Below are positions 24,965 through 34,771 of a stretch of DNA of 37,687 bases, piece by piece (the stretch's first letter is position 1; each line of letters begins with the position of its first letter). The position numbers and the translations under genes were made by a program. The notes below the pieces were generated by a model that did not search any database, had not been told where the DNA came from, and saw nothing but the letters and a program-made list of their open reading frames with translations. This DNA comes from Alphaproteobacteria bacterium (GTDB lineage: Bacteria > Pseudomonadota > Alphaproteobacteria > SHVP01). Location: NCBI GenBank assembly GCA_016869765.1, contig VGES01000035.1:1-37687 (forward strand), written 5' to 3'.

Positions 24965-26095
24965 ATGGCGGCGATCGGTGAACCGGAGATTCTGGCCGCC
25001 CTGCGCAAGGTCGTGCCGGCAGGCCACACCGCGGATGTGGTCGCGCTGAAGTGGATCGGCGGCGTCAAGTCCCAGGCCGGTCACATCGGCTTCACCATCA
25101 CCCTTCCCCTCGGGGTCGATCGAGAGGCGGTGAAGCGACGGTGCGAACAGGCCGTATTCGATCTGCCCGGCGTCCTGACGGCGACCGCAACCTTGGCAGC
25201 GGCGGCAGGCGGTGCGGCAGCGCCAAGTGGTGGCGCAGCTTCGGTGGCGCAGGCGCGCACCCAAGCGCAGGCTCAAGCCAATGCCAAGCCGGGGGTTCCC
25301 GGCGTCCAAGCGATCATCGCCGTGGCCTCGGGCAAAGGGGGAGTCGGCAAGTCGACGACCGCCGTCAATCTCGCCCTCGCCCTGCGCCAGTTGGGCCTGA
25401 GCGTCGGCCTGATGGACGCAGACATCTTCGGCCCATCGGTGCCACGCATGATGGGCCTGTCGGGCAGACCCGACAGCAAGGACGGCCGCACCATCGACCC
25501 CAAGGAGGCCCACGGCGTCAAATGTATGTCGATCGGATTCATGGTGCCGCAGGACACCGCCGTCATCTGGCGCGGGCCCATGGTGATGAGCGCGGTCGAA
25601 CAACTGATCCGCGACGTCAACTGGGCCCCCCTCGACGTGCTGGTCTGCGACCTGCCGCCAGGGACGGGGGACGCGCAACTGACGATGGCTCAGCGCGTGC
25701 CGCTCACGGGGGCCGTCGTCGTCTCCACGCCCCAGGAGGTCGCGCTCGGCGATGTTCGCAAAGGCATCGACATGTTCCGCAAGGTCAACGTGCCGTTGTT
25801 CGGCGTCATCGAGAACATGAGCTACTACGTTTGTCCGAGTTGCGGTCATCGCGCCGAATTGTTCGGCCACGGCGGCGCCCGGCAGACCGCCCTGGAACTC
25901 GGCGCCGATTTTCTCGGCGAGATTCCGCTGCACCTGGCCATTCGCGAACACGCCGACGCGGGCACACCGATCGTCGTGGCCCAGCCCGATAGCCCACACG
26001 CCAAGGCCTACCGGTCGATCGCCGAAAGGGTCCACGCCAAGATCGACTCGGCGCTCGCCTCCACGCGCCGCGGCCCCCGCATTGTGATGGAGTAG
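24965..26095 (+). CDS. apbC: Iron-sulfur cluster carrier ATPase Mrp/ApbC
   Basis: This 376-residue protein has an N-terminal MIP18/DUF59 domain (residues 1-78), an Ala/Gln-rich linker (78-112) and a ParA/MinD-like ATPase. The P-loop is 'GKGGVGKSTTAVNLALAL' from residue 123, the Walker-like segments are 'DADIFGPSVPRMMG' and 'DLPPGTGDAQLTMAQ', and the CxxC pair is Cys290/Cys293, which holds a bridging Fe-S cluster in the dimer. It transfers Fe-S clusters to target enzymes; the class I fumarase in this window is one plausible kind of client. The start is set at ATG 24965, preceded by AAGGAG; the frame is open 30 codons further upstream. Confidence 0.94.
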   Translation: MAAIGEPEILAALRKVVPAGHTADVVALKWIGGVKSQAGHIGFTITLPLGVDREAVKRRCEQAVFDLPGVLTATATLAAAAGGAAAPSGGAASVAQARTQAQAQANAKPGVPGVQAIIAVASGKGGVGKSTTAVNLALALRQLGLSVGLMDADIFGPSVPRMMGLSGRPDSKDGRTIDPKEAHGVKCMSIGFMVPQDTAVIWRGPMVMSAVEQLIRDVNWAPLDVLVCDLPPGTGDAQLTMAQRVPLTGAVVVSTPQEVALGDVRKGIDMFRKVNVPLFGVIENMSYYVCPSCGHRAELFGHGGARQTALELGADFLGEIPLHLAIREHADAGTPIVVAQPDSPHAKAYRSIAERVHAKIDSALASTRRGPRIVME

Positions 26096-26478: not shown

Positions 26479-27348
26479 TTACTTGTCCAGCCAGTCGCCG
26501 AATACTCTGCCGAGCGCGCGAATCTCCTCGTCGCTCGCCAGATTCTCGGCGTTGTCCTGCGGCTGCACCAGCTTGGTCGCCCCGGGCACGAGTCGGGCCA
26601 CCTCGTCGAGCGCGGCAAACGGACTGTCGTGACGGGCGCAGGTGGCGAGCACCGGCATTTTCAGTAGCGGCAACCGGGCCGGCGAGTCATAGAGCACCGC
26701 CGCACGGTAGGCGGTGTGACTCGTCGGATAGCTCTTCAGCACCTCGACGACGTGATCGTGAAACAGCGATAAGGGCGGCAGGCCGTTGGGTCGGACGTTG
26801 GCCGCCAACCGCTTGTGCGCCGGCCGAAACAGGTAGGCGTCCTTGAGGTCGTTCCATGCGCGGAAAAACTGCGTGCCGATCTGATCGATGAGGTGGCGCT
26901 TGTCGAGGGTCTTGGCGTATTCGCGCGCCTGTTCGGTTGGCGCGGCGCTCATGCCATCGAGGATCACTCTGCCCACGCGCGACGGCGAAGCGATCGCAAA
27001 CTCGGTCGCGATGCGCGCCCCGGTGTGATGCCCCAACAGGTCGACTTGACCGGTCACGCCATACCAATCGAGGCCGCGGCGCGCGGCATCGGCGAAGTAG
27101 GTCATGTCGGCGTCTTCGCGGGCCGGCGGCGAGGAGTCCCCCATACCGAGCGTGTCCAACGCCATCACCGGCCGCGAACCGGCCATGGCGAGAATCAGCC
27201 GCTCCAGTTGCTTGGAGGATCCGGGCGAGCCGTGGAACATGACCAGCGGCCGTTTCTTGGCCTTCCGGGGATCGCCGCCGGCGGCGCGAAAGTGAATTTG
27301 TCCCTCGGCGATGTCGAGGAAGCCGCGTTCGATCGTCAACGTCGTCAT
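26479..27348 (-). CDS. Alpha/beta-hydrolase-fold protein with His at the nucleophile position (paralogue 1)
   Basis: This 289-residue alpha/beta-hydrolase-fold protein has the oxyanion-hole strand 'LVMFHGSPGSS' (39-45) and 'LDTLGMGDSS'. The nucleophile elbow is G106-H-H108-T-G110 instead of G-x-S-x-G. An acid candidate is present in 'CARHDSP', but the usual C-terminal His is not seen ('LVQPQDNAENLASD'). It is therefore unlikely to be a classical serine hydrolase; related GHHTG-type proteins exist but their chemistry is unclear to me. The ATG at 27348 has AGGAG upstream. It is the last of three tandem paralogues and the most diverged. Confidence 0.8.
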   Translation of the reverse strand: MTTLTIERGFLDIAEGQIHFRAAGGDPRKAKKRPLVMFHGSPGSSKQLERLILAMAGSRPVMALDTLGMGDSSPPAREDADMTYFADAARRGLDWYGVTGQVDLLGHHTGARIATEFAIASPSRVGRVILDGMSAAPTEQAREYAKTLDKRHLIDQIGTQFFRAWNDLKDAYLFRPAHKRLAANVRPNGLPPLSLFHDHVVEVLKSYPTSHTAYRAAVLYDSPARLPLLKMPVLATCARHDSPFAALDEVARLVPGATKLVQPQDNAENLASDEEIRALGRVFGDWLDK

Positions 27349-27358
27349 GACCTCGCTC

Positions 27359-28201
27359 CTAGGAATCGAGCCAATCGCGGAACATCGGCGCCGCGGCACC
27401 ATAGTCGCCCGCGATGGCACCCTCCGGATAGCGCCTGGCGGTGCAGTTGGCAATCATCTTGGCCACCTGATCGAACGCCGCCGCACTGCCATCCATCGCC
27501 GCCACCGTGTAGAGCACGGGCTGCGGGATCAAGGGGTACTTCCGCCCACCGGGATTGGCTTCGAAGGCGGCGATGTAGGCCTGATGGTAGGTCCGGAGGT
27601 TGCGCAACAATTCGAGCGCCCGGCGATGCAGGTCGGAAGGCGATCCCATGTCGCGCTTGCGCCGGTGGACCGTGTCGCGGTCGTAGTACGGGAAGAAGAG
27701 ATAGAGGTCCTGGGCCGTCTGGAAGGCCCACATCATCTGGGCGCCGGTGTAGTCGAACGGCGGGCGCTCACGCAGATGGGCCACGTATTCGTTCTTGAGC
27801 GTTTCGTTGGGCAAGCCGACGCCGTCCAAGATCAATCGCCGCACCCGCTTGGGGTGACGGATGGCGATGTCGATCGCGACGTGCGCCCCGGTGTGGGTGC
27901 CGTAGAGGTCCGCAGCGGCGATCCCGAGCGCATCGAAAAACGCGATCATCTTGTCGCTGAAGTACTCGACCGGCGGCTCGGCGAGTGTGGGCGCACAGGA
28001 GTCGCCCTGGCCCAGATGATCGGGCGCGATCGCCCAACGTGACTGGCCCATCGGTTCGGTGAGCGCGTTGAGGCTGCGGCCGGAGAACGGCGAGGCGTGC
28101 AACAGCACCAGGGGTGGCTTGGCGGAGCCCCGGTGCTCCTCGCCGGCGGTCCAGTAGTGCACTTGACCGATGTCGATCGAGGCGAAGCGACGTTTGACCA
28201 T
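27359..28201 (-). CDS. Alpha/beta-hydrolase-fold protein with His at the nucleophile position (paralogue 2)
   Basis: This 280-residue paralogue starts M-V-K-R-R-F-A-S-I-D-I-G and has the family pattern 'LVLLHASPFSGRS' (oxyanion region), 'DHLGQGDSCAP' and the elbow G101-T-H103-T-G105 in 'ADLYGTHTGAHVAIDIAI'. The Ser nucleophile is replaced by His, and the C-terminal part shows no candidate catalytic His. It is strikingly similar to the next gene upstream, including 'IGQVHY-TAGEEHRG' and 'FDYTGAQMMWAFQTAQDLYL'. Gaps to its neighbours are 9-10 nt, so all three are co-transcribed. Substrate and reaction are unknown. Confidence 0.8.
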   Translation of the reverse strand: MVKRRFASIDIGQVHYWTAGEEHRGSAKPPLVLLHASPFSGRSLNALTEPMGQSRWAIAPDHLGQGDSCAPTLAEPPVEYFSDKMIAFFDALGIAAADLYGTHTGAHVAIDIAIRHPKRVRRLILDGVGLPNETLKNEYVAHLRERPPFDYTGAQMMWAFQTAQDLYLFFPYYDRDTVHRRKRDMGSPSDLHRRALELLRNLRTYHQAYIAAFEANPGGRKYPLIPQPVLYTVAAMDGSAAAFDQVAKMIANCTARRYPEGAIAGDYGAAAPMFRDWLDS

Positions 28202-28210
28202 CGGTCCTCC

Positions 28211-29050
28211 CTAGGAATCCAGCCAAGCCGCGAACTTGATCGCACCAGCCGCGTAGTCGACAGCGCTGGTCTGCGGGTAGCGATAGACCTCGACGCCGGG
28301 GATCATCGCCGCAGTCTCCTCGAAACCGCCCTCGATCGCATCCATGGCCGCGGCCGTGTACAGCGTCGGCACCTTGAGCGCCGAATACTTGCGGCCCCCC
28401 GGGTTGGCTTGGAACGCCGCGATGTAGGCCAAGTGAAACGTATCGCGGCGGCGCAGCAGTTCGAGGGCGCGCGCATGGATATCGAGTGCGGGTGGCAGAT
28501 CGCGCACCCGCCGATGGGCGGTGTCGCGTTCGTAGTAGGGAAAGAACGTCAGCATGTCGCGCGCGGTCTGGAACGACCACATCATTTGCGCACCGGTGAA
28601 ATCGAACGGCGGCGCCTCGCGCAAATGGGCGACATAGGAGCGCGTCAACTCGGGCCTGAGGATGCCGATGCCGTCGAGGATCAACTTGTGGACGCGCTTG
28701 GGATAGCGCAACGCCACATCCATCACCGTGTGGCCACCGGTGTGGGTGCCATAGAGATCGGCCTCGGCGATCCCGAGCGCATCCAGGAACGCGACCAGTT
28801 TGTCGCCGAAGTATTCTATCGTCGGCGAGGGGTGCTGCGGGGCACACGAGTCGCCCTGGCCCAGGTTGTCCGGCGCGATCGCCCGGCGTGTCGTCCCCAT
28901 CGCTTCCGTCAGCGGGCTCAACGCCCGCCCGGGAAACGGCGACGCGTGCATCAGGATCAGCGGCCGGCGTCCGTTGCCCCGATGCTCCTCGCCGGCGGTG
29001 CGGTAGTGCACCTGGCCGATGTCGATGGTGGCGAAGCGACGCTTGAGCAT
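28211..29050 (-). CDS. Alpha/beta-hydrolase-fold protein with His at the nucleophile position (paralogue 3)
   Basis: This 279-residue protein is close to paralogue 2 along its whole length. It starts M-L-K-R-R-F-A-T-I-D-I-G and has 'LILMHASPFPGRAL', 'DNLGQGDSCAP' and the elbow G101-T-H103-T-G105 ('LYGTHTGGHTVMDVALRYP'). As in its paralogues, the nucleophilic Ser is His and no C-terminal His base is apparent. The ATG at 29050 is 17 nt after the thyX stop. The shared changes mean the substitution was in the common ancestor and has been kept, which argues for a selected function. Confidence 0.8.
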   Translation of the reverse strand: MLKRRFATIDIGQVHYRTAGEEHRGNGRRPLILMHASPFPGRALSPLTEAMGTTRRAIAPDNLGQGDSCAPQHPSPTIEYFGDKLVAFLDALGIAEADLYGTHTGGHTVMDVALRYPKRVHKLILDGIGILRPELTRSYVAHLREAPPFDFTGAQMMWSFQTARDMLTFFPYYERDTAHRRVRDLPPALDIHARALELLRRRDTFHLAYIAAFQANPGGRKYSALKVPTLYTAAAMDAIEGGFEETAAMIPGVEVYRYPQTSAVDYAAGAIKFAAWLDS

Positions 29051-29067: not shown

Positions 29068-30009
29068 TCACTGTTCGCTGCGCTCCAGCGCCGCCATCAG
29101 TTCGCGCCACTCGCGTTTCGACAGCGCCGAGGATTCCTGCGTTACGGCTTCGCCGGCGATCAACCGCTTGACCACGTCGAGCGCTTTGGCCGACAGGCGC
29201 ACGCCCCCGAGGCCGTACTCGACGAACGCCTCGTAGGTGTGCGGCACCCAGCGCTGCAGCACGTCGAGCATGGCCTCGGCGTAGACGCGGATTTCGTACT
29301 GGGCGTGGGCATCGGCGCGCAGACTGAGGAAGTGCAGGAAATTGTGCAGGTTGGTCTTCCAGTACCATTGCGTGAAAAAATTGAGCGACAGGTTCATGCG
29401 CGCCAGCTCGCGTGCAAGCCCCTGTCGCGAGGGGTCACGCCGGTTTCCGGAGGAATCCGCGTTGAGCATCTCTTCATAGTGGGCGTAGGCGCGCGCCGAA
29501 TCCTCGCGGAGCAACGCCAGGACGCGCTCCGCCTCAGCCCCGGTCAGGACGTCCCCCCGCCCCTGGCGGTTGGTCGCCGACTGCGCCGCCAAGTGCTCGG
29601 CGGCCGGAATGTAGAACTCGTTGTCGAGGATCGAGTAGCGCGCCGAGTATTCGTTGACGTTGGCGGTGCGATGCCGGATCCACTGCCGCGCGACGAAAAT
29701 CGGCAGCTTCACGTGGAACTTGATCTCGGCCATCTCGAAGGGCGTCGTGTGGCGGTGGCGGATCAGATAGTTGATCAGCCCCTTGTCCTCCGAGATTCGC
29801 TTGGTGCCCTTGCCGTAGGAGACGCGGGCGGCCTGCACGACCGCGGCATCGTCCCCCATGTAGTCGACGACGCGGACGAAGCCGTGATCGAGCACCGGGA
29901 TCGCCTCGTAGAGAATCTCCTCGAGCGCCGGCACGGTGGCCCGGCGGGTCGTATGGGACTCCGCCCGCTGCGCCGCGATCTCTTGTCGTTGCTGGTCGCT
30001 GATCGGCAC
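29068..30009 (-). CDS. thyX: Flavin-dependent thymidylate synthase
   Basis: This 313-residue enzyme makes dTMP from dUMP with methylene-tetrahydrofolate and reduced FAD. The ThyX signature R-H-R-x7-S is seen as R112-H-R114 to Ser122 in '[16 protein letters not shown]'. Other family segments are '[14 protein letters not shown]', '[20 protein letters not shown]' and '[20 protein letters not shown]'. Length fits alphaproteobacterial ThyX. It heads a minus-strand run with three alpha/beta-hydrolase-fold genes and is divergent from the toxin-antitoxin module. Confidence 0.96.
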
Positions 30010-30091: not shown

Positions 30092-30373
30092 ATGGAGTTC
30101 GAATGGGACGAGCACAAGAGTGCCTCGACCCGGGCTCGTCGCGGCTTTGGATTCGACTACGTGGTGAGGGTGTTTCTCGACCCTGAACGAATCGACCGCG
30201 TGGACGACCGCCGCGACTATGGTGAGATTCGCTATCAGACGATCGGTCGCATCGGCGATCGAGTCTTCATGATTGCCTACACGGTTCGCGGCAAACGAAT
30301 CCGGATCATTTCAGCAAGGAGGGCGCATGACCACGAGGAAAGAACGTACCGTCAGGGTCAAACTCAGCGTTGA
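30092..30373 (+). CDS. brnT: BrnT family toxin
   Basis: This 93-residue protein matches BrnT, a RelE-fold ribonuclease toxin. Visible parts are 'FEWDEHKSASTRARRGFGFD', 'VFLDPERIDRVDDRRDYGEI', 'IGRIGDRVFMIAYTVRGKRI' and 'RIISARRAHDHEER'. BrnT toxins cleave mRNA and arrest growth until bound by their antitoxin. The ATG at 30092 lies 5 nt after the -10 box, with no room for a Shine-Dalgarno, so translation is probably leaderless. The 3' end overlaps the antitoxin gene by 47 bases. Confidence 0.9.
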   Translation: MEFEWDEHKSASTRARRGFGFDYVVRVFLDPERIDRVDDRRDYGEIRYQTIGRIGDRVFMIAYTVRGKRIRIISARRAHDHEERTYRQGQTQR

Positions 30374-30731
30374 CGGAACGTTGCGCCGTCGGGGTTCTAT
30401 GGGGGCAGCCGGCGGAGTCATCCGCTCGAAAGTCGACTACGCCAAGCTCGACTCGGCGGCGGCGTTCGCCCCGGACGCCGACACTCCGAAATTGACCGTG
30501 CGCGAATTGCAGGGGATGCGCCGCCCACGTGGCGAAGTCGTTTCCGATTCTGCCGCTATTCGCGCCCGCCTCCGAATGTCACAGGCCGCCTTCGCGGCCC
30601 TGTTTGGACTTAGCGTTCGCACCATCCAAGAATGGGAACAGGGCCGCCGGAGACCCGATGGCCCAGCGCGCGCCCTGCTCCGCGTCATCGAGCGGGAACC
30701 CGCCGCCGTCCGTCGCGCCCTGGCGAGTTGA
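30327..30731 (+). CDS. Xre-type helix-turn-helix antitoxin partner of BrnT
   Basis: This 134-residue protein has a C-terminal Xre helix-turn-helix: residues about 74-120 include 'IRARLRMSQAAFAALFGLSV' then R-T-I-Q-E-W-E-Q-G, as in HigA-type antitoxins. Its N-terminal 70 residues are basic then Ala/Asp-rich and probably bind the toxin. The ATG at 30327 has AAGGAGG upstream, a far stronger ribosome site than the toxin has, which would favour antitoxin excess. BrnT usually pairs with the ribbon-helix-helix BrnA, so this is a hybrid module. It is the likely repressor acting on the 30066-30084 palindrome. Confidence 0.85.
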   Translation: MTTRKERTVRVKLSVDGTLRRRGSMGAAGGVIRSKVDYAKLDSAAAFAPDADTPKLTVRELQGMRRPRGEVVSDSAAIRARLRMSQAAFAALFGLSVRTIQEWEQGRRRPDGPARALLRVIEREPAAVRRALAS

Positions 30732-33343: not shown

Positions 33344-33347
<4 letters not shown>

Positions 33348-34771
33348 AGGTTCGGACAAAGCGAACGCGGCGGGAGAACGCGCCGGTCCTGCCGGACGTG
33401 CTCGCCGATGATCTCGACGTCGTGTTCTGTGGCAGCGCCGTGGGGGCCGCCTCGGCCAAGCGACGCGCTTACTACGCCGGCCCGGGGAACAAGTTCTGGC
33501 CGACGCTGGCCGAGATCGGGCTCACGGATCGGCCGTTGCGGCCGGAGGAGTACCCGCTCGTGCTCACCTACGGCGTCGGCCTCACCGACATGAACAAGAC
33601 CGAGGCCGGCGGCGACAGCGATCTCACGAGTGCGGCCGACGATCCCGCCGGTTTGCGCGCCAAGATCGAGCGTTACCGCCCACGCGCTCTGGCGTTCAAC
33701 GGGCTCCGTGCCGGCCGCGCCTTCCTCGGGCCGAGGGCCGCGATCGGTCGTCAGCGCGAACGAATCGGGGAGACCGCCATCTACGTCCTCCCCTCGACGT
33801 CCGGTATGGCGTCTGGCGCCTGGGATCCCGAACCCTGGCAGGCCATGGCGTCACACCTGCGACAGGCACGACGGTTTCGGCGGGATGAGCCTGACCTCTC
33901 CCGGCTGACCGATGTCGCCAAGGAGGACATGCGGGTCGCGCTCAATCGCCGGCTGTATCACCGCATCGGTCTCGACCTGCGCAAGAAGCGCGACGAGAGC
34001 GAGTTCGCCTCGCGCCCGACCTCCGCCGCCCAGCAACGGGCGCAGCAGAGTGCCGTCGCCGAGGCGATCGCGGCGTTCCTGGAGGGGCCTGGCCGATTCT
34101 GGCCGCGCCGGGCGGAGGCGTCGGAACTGGTCGCGGCGTTCTTCGCGCGCTACCCCGAACGCCCCGTCGCCGACAACGAGGGCGGCATCAAGCTCGCCGA
34201 CTCGCTATGGCTCTATGTGCTCGCCGGTCTGCTCGATCCACGATGGATCGTCGAAAGCGGCACGCACCGCGGCCACTCGTCGTGGATCTTGCGCACCGCC
34301 TGCCCGACCGCCGCGATCCACTGTTTCGACATCAGTTTCCGCAACTTGTCCTGGCGTGATCCCCGGATCCTCTATGGCGAGCATGATTGGACCGCGGCAA
34401 TGCTCGCCCCGCCCTCGCGTGATCGGGCGTTGTGCTATTTCGACGATCACATCAGCCACGCGCAACGTATCCGCGAGGCGAGCGAGCTCGGCTATCGTTG
34501 GCTGGTGCTGGACGACGACGTCGCCGCCTATCAATTGCACGCGACGGGGCACCCGCCGCTTCCCACCTGTTCGGTCATCGGCGACACGAGCCTTCGTGAT
34601 CGCGAGCGACTGACGTGGATGCGTCACGGGAAGCCGCAGCAGTGGACCATCGACCGGGCGGATATCGCCTCCGCGCGGCGATGCCTACGGCATCGCGCCC
34701 GCACGCCGGACCTGTCGCCGATCCTGCGATCACGACCGCAGTCGGGCATGGCCGTGGTCGAGTTACGGTGA
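33344..34771 (+). CDS. Mug-like DNA glycosylase fused to a methyltransferase-like domain
   Basis: This 475-residue protein starts at GTG 33344, overlapping the fumarase stop by 4 bases. Residues about 20-175 form a Mug/TDG-type uracil or mismatch DNA glycosylase domain: '[20 protein letters not shown]', '[20 protein letters not shown]', '[12 protein letters not shown]' and '[12 protein letters not shown]'. The E. coli Mug motif G-I-N-P-G is replaced by G-S-A-V-G, so the catalytic Asn is absent at that spot, as in a glycosylase subgroup I recall. Residues about 195-475 are unrelated: '[20 protein letters not shown]', '[13 protein letters not shown]' and '[16 protein letters not shown]' resemble a SAM-methyltransferase-like fold. 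No stop separates the halves. Domain functions are inferred, and the fusion is seen directly. Confidence 0.8.

Follow-up and report, generated by a model that had tools for sequence, protein, structure and literature searches.

The alpha/beta-hydrolase fold defines one of the largest superfamilies of enzymes. According to a recent survey, its nucleophiles are Ser, Cys, or Asp, a few lyases lack the Ser and rely on an acid-His dyad, and the catalytic His comes from the beta8 loop (PMC11878206). In HOD and MKS1, which share the fold, the nucleophile is not needed and a His-Asp or His-Thr base is used (PMC10548524). However, the base of HOD, His251, is separate from the elbow residue Ser101 (PMC10548524), whereas in the three proteins described herein the His itself occupies the elbow position. 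The C-terminal-loop His with which HOD/QDO-type enzymes form a His-Asp dyad is absent from these proteins.

Several other described enzymes are similar in structure. The meta-cleavage product C-C hydrolases HsaD, BphD, and MhpC are alike in fold, size, and core alignment, but they use a Ser-His-Asp triad, whereas the three proteins carry His in place of Ser and lack the C-terminal His. The NCBIfam HsaD model is the best-scoring named model for two of them (P0001 and P0003, see below), at ~47-48 bits, and the equivalog cut-off for meta-cleavage product hydrolases (HsaD/MhpC) is not reached (48 versus 400 bits). The closest solved structures are PcaD 3-oxoadipate enol-lactonase (2xua), a T. terrifontis esterase (4uhd), and a type-A feruloyl esterase (7dq9), with Z scores of ~24-25 and deviations of 2.3-2.9 Å over ~230 residues. 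Unlike the His-elbow proteins, all are serine esterases or lactonases. Fluoroacetate dehalogenase scores nearly as well (Z ~24), and fluoroacetate and haloalkane dehalogenases and epoxide hydrolases have in common with our proteins an H-x-x-P loop before the oxyanion hole. However, these enzymes have an Asp nucleophile and a C-terminal His, whereas His occupies the nucleophile position here.

No closer described family emerged. Pfam and NCBIfam yield only the general fold for the three proteins, and the Pfam Abhydrolase_1 model is above its cut-off for P0001 and P0003 and below it for P0002. When the PDB was searched with a profile of His-elbow sequences, the five matches read residue by residue have an elbow Ser or, in a mutant entry, Ala. 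Neither that search nor the open-access literature yielded a characterized GxHTG member. Literature searches for the motifs GHHTG, GTHTG, GYHTG, GDHTG, and GXHTG returned nothing relevant, and those for alpha/beta-hydrolases with His for Ser or without a nucleophile returned only precedents with other layouts. We class the His-elbow proteins as a new form of the alpha/beta-hydrolase fold, outside any named enzyme family.

The window, meaning the whole 37,687-nucleotide stretch of alphaproteobacterial DNA that was analyzed, carries these proteins in the following setting.

29068-30009, minus strand: thyX (Thy1; Pfam Thy1, 3.7e-57), the first gene of the apparent operon, which serves as syntenic context only.
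28211-29050, minus strand: P0001, a single-domain His-elbow alpha/beta-hydrolase-fold protein of 279 aa, with GTHTG (H103), D126 (beta6), H206, and D237 (beta7), and without a C-terminal His.
27359-28201, minus strand: P0002, a paralogue of 280 aa with GTHTG (H103) and orthologues in the relatives G002, G003, and G006.
26479-27348, minus strand: P0003, a diverged paralogue of 289 aa counted from ATG, with GHHTG (H108) and orthologues in G002, G003, G005, and G006.
24965-26095, plus strand: a Mrp-type P-loop ATPase (family read from sequence), the convergent neighbor.

The four minus-strand genes are separated by gaps of 17, 9, and 10 bp. For P0003 we took the ATG start, and a longer version in the open reading frame list, from a TTG at 27453, overlaps the upstream gene. 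P0001 and P0002 are 63% identical, and P0003 is ~33-36% identical to either. The preliminary description held that His replaces the elbow Ser in three tandem paralogues and that the usual C-terminal catalytic His is missing. Both statements are borne out. The reading frames are real and intact, and none of the three sequences has a His after the beta7 Asp.

A P0002-like/P0003-like pair sits between thyX and mrp/hflKC in three relatives (G002, G003, and G006), with the Mrp-type ATPase gene kept on the other side, and a P0003-like gene stands alone at this place in a fourth (G005). All syntenic orthologues retain the elbow His, D61, D126, and D237, and one has lost H206. Between two genomes of the same genus (G003 and G006), the two orthologues have dN/dS values of 0.044 and 0.053, compared with 0.074 for thyX. 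Such low ratios indicate strong purifying selection on these orthologues. The earlier proposal that the proteins have a conserved non-canonical function and are not decaying is therefore well supported by these dN/dS values and by retention of the His across genera in syntenic orthologues. The third window copy is probably a tandem duplicate that arose within the lineage, since the identity between P0001 and P0002 (63%) exceeds that of either to the genes of relatives (55-60%). Another copy from the same genome (contig C13), 57-62% identical, reads GTQTG, with Gln at the elbow and Ser in place of H206, and therefore the family also includes natural elbow-less members. In three relatives, the gene directly upstream of the orthologous pair (L103:5755-6543 and L143:5349-6146 are examples) is absent from the window, and the L103 copy matches the FkbM methyltransferase model.

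The preliminary description also considered the triplication unusual as a unit. This view did not hold up, because the pair occupies the same place in three relatives and the window genome carries ~75 such domains at dozens of loci; for this lineage, triplication is ordinary. A profile of the three window proteins gave 88 matches in this 3.99-Mb genome. A broader profile, built from 67 His-elbow domains and applied at E <= 1e-30, detects 75 domains there; 73, 44, 43, 22, 15, and 10 in six relatives of the same family (G002, G003, G006, G005, G004, and G001, respectively); and none in three genomes of other families. The distribution is patchy in the class, with the family present in 30 of 385 genomes at E <= 1e-40, and the named loci nearest in sequence belong to Roseomonas and to Rhodospirillales/Rhodospirillaceae MAGs. 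Because one bacterium holds ~75 domains, many of them fused in pairs, the chemistry of the family seems important to the lineage.

The elbow His is a family trait. It is present in 129 of 201 aligned domains extracted from the window and from fetched loci (51 of 76 for the window genome). Among 398 genomes scanned across the phylum, five other than that of the window gave matches at E <= 1e-60, and the matched domain is GxHTG in every case, whereas the weaker matches that were read (E 1e-34 to 1e-27) have Ser at the elbow, or Asp or Tyr in a few. From this sequence pattern we conclude that GxHTG marks a discrete family, not the tail of ordinary hydrolases. Close relatives from Rhodospirillaceae MAGs (L064:6004-6828, L065:5995-6561, and L062) carry an elbow Ser (GSSLG), and the full-length L064 protein also has no C-terminal His.

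Structure predictions place the His as the motif implies. AlphaFold models of two of the window proteins, made with a shallow alignment of the window proteins and contig proteins from the same genome, have pTM values of 0.79 and 0.77, with pLDDT below 50 in parts of the cap. Both models have the alpha/beta-hydrolase core, with best Z scores of ~24-25 to true members of the fold. His103 lies between strand 97-102 and helix 104-115, and His108 lies between strand 102-107 and helix 109-120, each at the apex of the turn from strand beta5 to the next helix. Thus, the geometry and glycines of the G-x-Nuc-x-G elbow are present, with His rather than Ser, Cys, or Asp at its center. When the family profile is aligned to solved esterases, the His faces the catalytic Ser and D237 faces the acid of the beta7 region, and no consensus His faces the catalytic His. 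D237 and D126 are found in all orthologues of the window type. The canonical His on the loop after strand 8, absent from all three window proteins, appears in 9 of the 67 domains of the wider family.

These 67 domains were selected for the elbow His but are mutually diverged, with a mean column identity of 32%. The residue after the His is Thr in 62 of them, the next is Gly in 65, and the beta7 position is Asp or Glu in 59. In the family, the elbow His codon is both CAC (85 cases) and CAT (41 cases), which, together with the conserved Thr and Gly, argues that it did not arise by chance. Chance or an annotation artifact is likewise ruled out by conservation and dN/dS. The beta7 position is Asp in a fraction of 0.93 of the His-elbow domains, and Asp or Glu in 0.96 (n = 123), versus 0.60 in related non-His domains. 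This association between the elbow His and D237 is suggestive, and it does not reach significance in a phylogeny-aware test (median p 0.375 over 10-11 independent pairs).

Most members of the family are two-domain fusions. We identified 57 proteins of ~550-600 aa that contain two such domains, and their N- and C-terminal elbows are His/other in 33, His/His in 20, other/other in four, and other/His in none. Accordingly, a single His is always in the N-domain (33:0 by a sign test that ignores shared ancestry). In a FastTree tree of 188 domains from which the elbow columns had been removed, the N-domains of His/other fusions form one clade (39 domains, 35 with His), and their C-domains form another (36 domains, two with His and the remainder with about ten other residues). 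The C-domain clade adjoins the singles of the window type (44 domains, 29 with His), among which a subclade of 11 has Arg, Met, Ser, Asn, or Leu at the elbow. The simplest reading of these sequences would be that the domains fused long ago, and that selection then preserved the His in one of them as the other drifted. The elbow thus appears to be held where it matters and free elsewhere, because 35 of 39 N-clade domains have retained the His versus two of 36 in the C-clade. Fusions in which one half is preserved and the other drifts offer a natural test of which residues matter. One fusion (L147, from G005) is built from two GTHTG domains of the window type. Because of this protein and the many other two-domain fusions among relatives, it is plausible that the window paralogues form a heteromer or act in pairs.

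The genes surrounding family members suggest a catabolic setting. Within two genes of family members in the window genome, the commonest neighbors are SBP_bac_5, methyltransferases, AMP-binding proteins, VOC, GST, SDR, and MmgE/PrpD. For SBP_bac_5, enrichment over distant genes at the same loci is not significant (12 of 136 versus 6 of 126, p 0.23). One fusion setting, pieced together from two loci (L089 and L092) and kept in other genomes, comprises two acyl-CoA ligases, Amidohydro_2, an FAD-linked oxidase, an isochorismatase-fold amidase, and a cupin. A second includes HsaA-type monooxygenases and VOC proteins, along with a CaiB-like CoA transferase and an amidohydrolase that were assigned by reading the sequence only. 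Both settings suggest participation in degradation pathways. The VOC neighbors gave no NCBIfam match as extradiol dioxygenases. In two genomes, a double-domain His-elbow protein has a tandem array of two or three HsaA-type flavin monooxygenases beside it (L091:13008-16716 and L118:5463-7927).

A second family has expanded in parallel. Its members are methyltransferase-like proteins of ~370-400 aa with a SAM domain in the C-terminal half and no Pfam match before residue ~185-200; one copy (L087:10806-12008) is the same gene as C54:10809-12005 of the window genome. There are at least 61 copies in the window genome and 59, 42, 41, 18, 15, and 8 in G002, G003, G006, G005, G004, and G001. These counts track those of the His-elbow family domains (r = 0.99, taking the at-least-61 count for the window genome). 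Among the 385 genomes, those outside the window genome's own family include 14 with both families, 11 with only the hydrolase family, six with only the methyltransferase-like family, and 349 with neither (Fisher p ~1e-14, kinship ignored). In four of the 14 co-occurring genomes (G068, G182, G254, and G277), the two families are <=2 kb apart. Many methyltransferase-like copies in the window genome are not adjacent to His-elbow genes, and gene clustering places no member of this family in the window. Still, a partnership between the two families appears likely from these counts.

Given these findings, we tentatively favor the view, at a strength just short of probable, that the products of the three genes are catalytically active and belong to an undescribed family, that the elbow His serves as a base together with a conserved Asp, and that the proteins are catabolic enzymes. 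Because the beta7 acid and T104 are kept and the canonical C-terminal His occurs in so few of the diverged domains, it would be natural to infer that the catalytic His has moved from the beta8 loop into the elbow to form a base dyad with Asp. The elbow His would then act as the general base in place of the missing C-terminal His, pairing with Asp237 and possibly also with Asp126 after beta6. The oxyanion might be stabilized by the H-x-S-P loop and the residue next to the elbow His, and a covalent acyl-enzyme would be absent. Likely reactions would be C-C cleavage of the lyase or retro-Claisen type, or C-C/C-O hydrolase chemistry. Alternatively, the proteins might activate water to attack degradation intermediates of the ring-opened or dicarbonyl kind. 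Having many copies would allow many substrates to be handled. Within a fusion, the N-domain would be the active part, and a C-domain whose elbow is degenerate would be a structural or regulatory partner. The apex position of the His in a well-formed elbow, retention of the beta7 acid, the rarity of the canonical His, the finding that the His is never only in the C-domain, dN/dS near 0.05, the catabolic neighbors, and the sub-threshold HsaD scores all speak for active enzymes. What speaks against them is that Gln, Arg, Met, Leu, Ser, or Asn can stand at the elbow of close single-domain paralogues, as Gln does in the C13 copy, and that the link between the elbow His and D237 is not significant with phylogeny. 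The low pLDDT in parts of the cap and the lack of significant SBP_bac_5 enrichment also count against this view.

This tolerance would fit pseudo-enzymes or binding proteins without catalysis, such as sensors, chaperones, or allosteric partners, that retained the fold and use the elbow residue only to help bind a ligand. Neither the usual nucleophile nor the usual base is left, and the elbow residue has been lost from several single-domain paralogues and from most C-domains of His/non-His fusions. However, GxHTG and the beta7 Asp are retained across the 67 diverged members more strictly than binding needs, and only four of 57 fusions have lost the His from both domains, and so we regard this explanation as fairly unlikely. 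A still less probable reading is that the His is a covalent nucleophile, forming acyl- or phospho-histidine in a nucleophilic hydrolase or transferase. The residue does occupy the nucleophile position, with the oxyanion loop and the beta7 acid in place, and some enzymes of other folds, such as acid phosphatase, do use a His nucleophile (PMC8938923). Yet the recent survey includes no His nucleophile among alpha/beta-hydrolase triads (PMC11878206), and a second His that could serve as the base for deacylation is missing from the usual place in most members.

Comparably improbable is an ordinary hydrolase with a displaced nucleophile, in which Thr104 or Ser37 of the H-x-S-P loop attacks and His103 is the base. 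In its favor, T104 is present in 96% of His-elbow domains versus 37% of the others, and S37 is conserved in 81%. However, the residue after the nucleophile normally provides an oxyanion-hole contact (PMC11878206), and S37 is replaced by Thr, Ala, or Gly in many members. Finally, decaying, pseudogene-like duplicates could account for the loss of catalytic residues relative to serine hydrolases, but this has next to no chance of being correct in light of the intact frames, dN/dS near 0.05, synteny across genera, and use of both CAC and CAT for the His. For the orthologous pair, decay is refuted by dN/dS.

If the proteins are indeed active enzymes that use the elbow His as a base, then a family under purifying selection with ~75 domains in one genome would add a catalytic layout to the fold and would point to an undescribed metabolism. 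A bolder proposal is that the elbow His and beta7 Asp dyad defines a new catalytic class which, with the co-expanded methyltransferase-like family, supports a many-substrate degradation that dominates one alphaproteobacterial family. We consider this version doubtful at present. The proteins are remarkable in four respects, namely that an elbow His characterizes the family, that the expansion is so large, that the fusions are asymmetric, and that a second family has expanded with them.

Two other regions of the window are also worth describing. The gene at 33344-34771 (plus strand) encodes a 475-aa protein of unusual architecture, in which a uracil-DNA-glycosylase domain (residues 18-156) is followed by a long C-terminal extension with no Pfam match at E <= 0.001. 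At 30092-30731 (plus strand), a BrnT-type ribonuclease toxin (PF04365, 2e-23) is followed by an overlapping gene for an HTH protein, which is probably its antitoxin.
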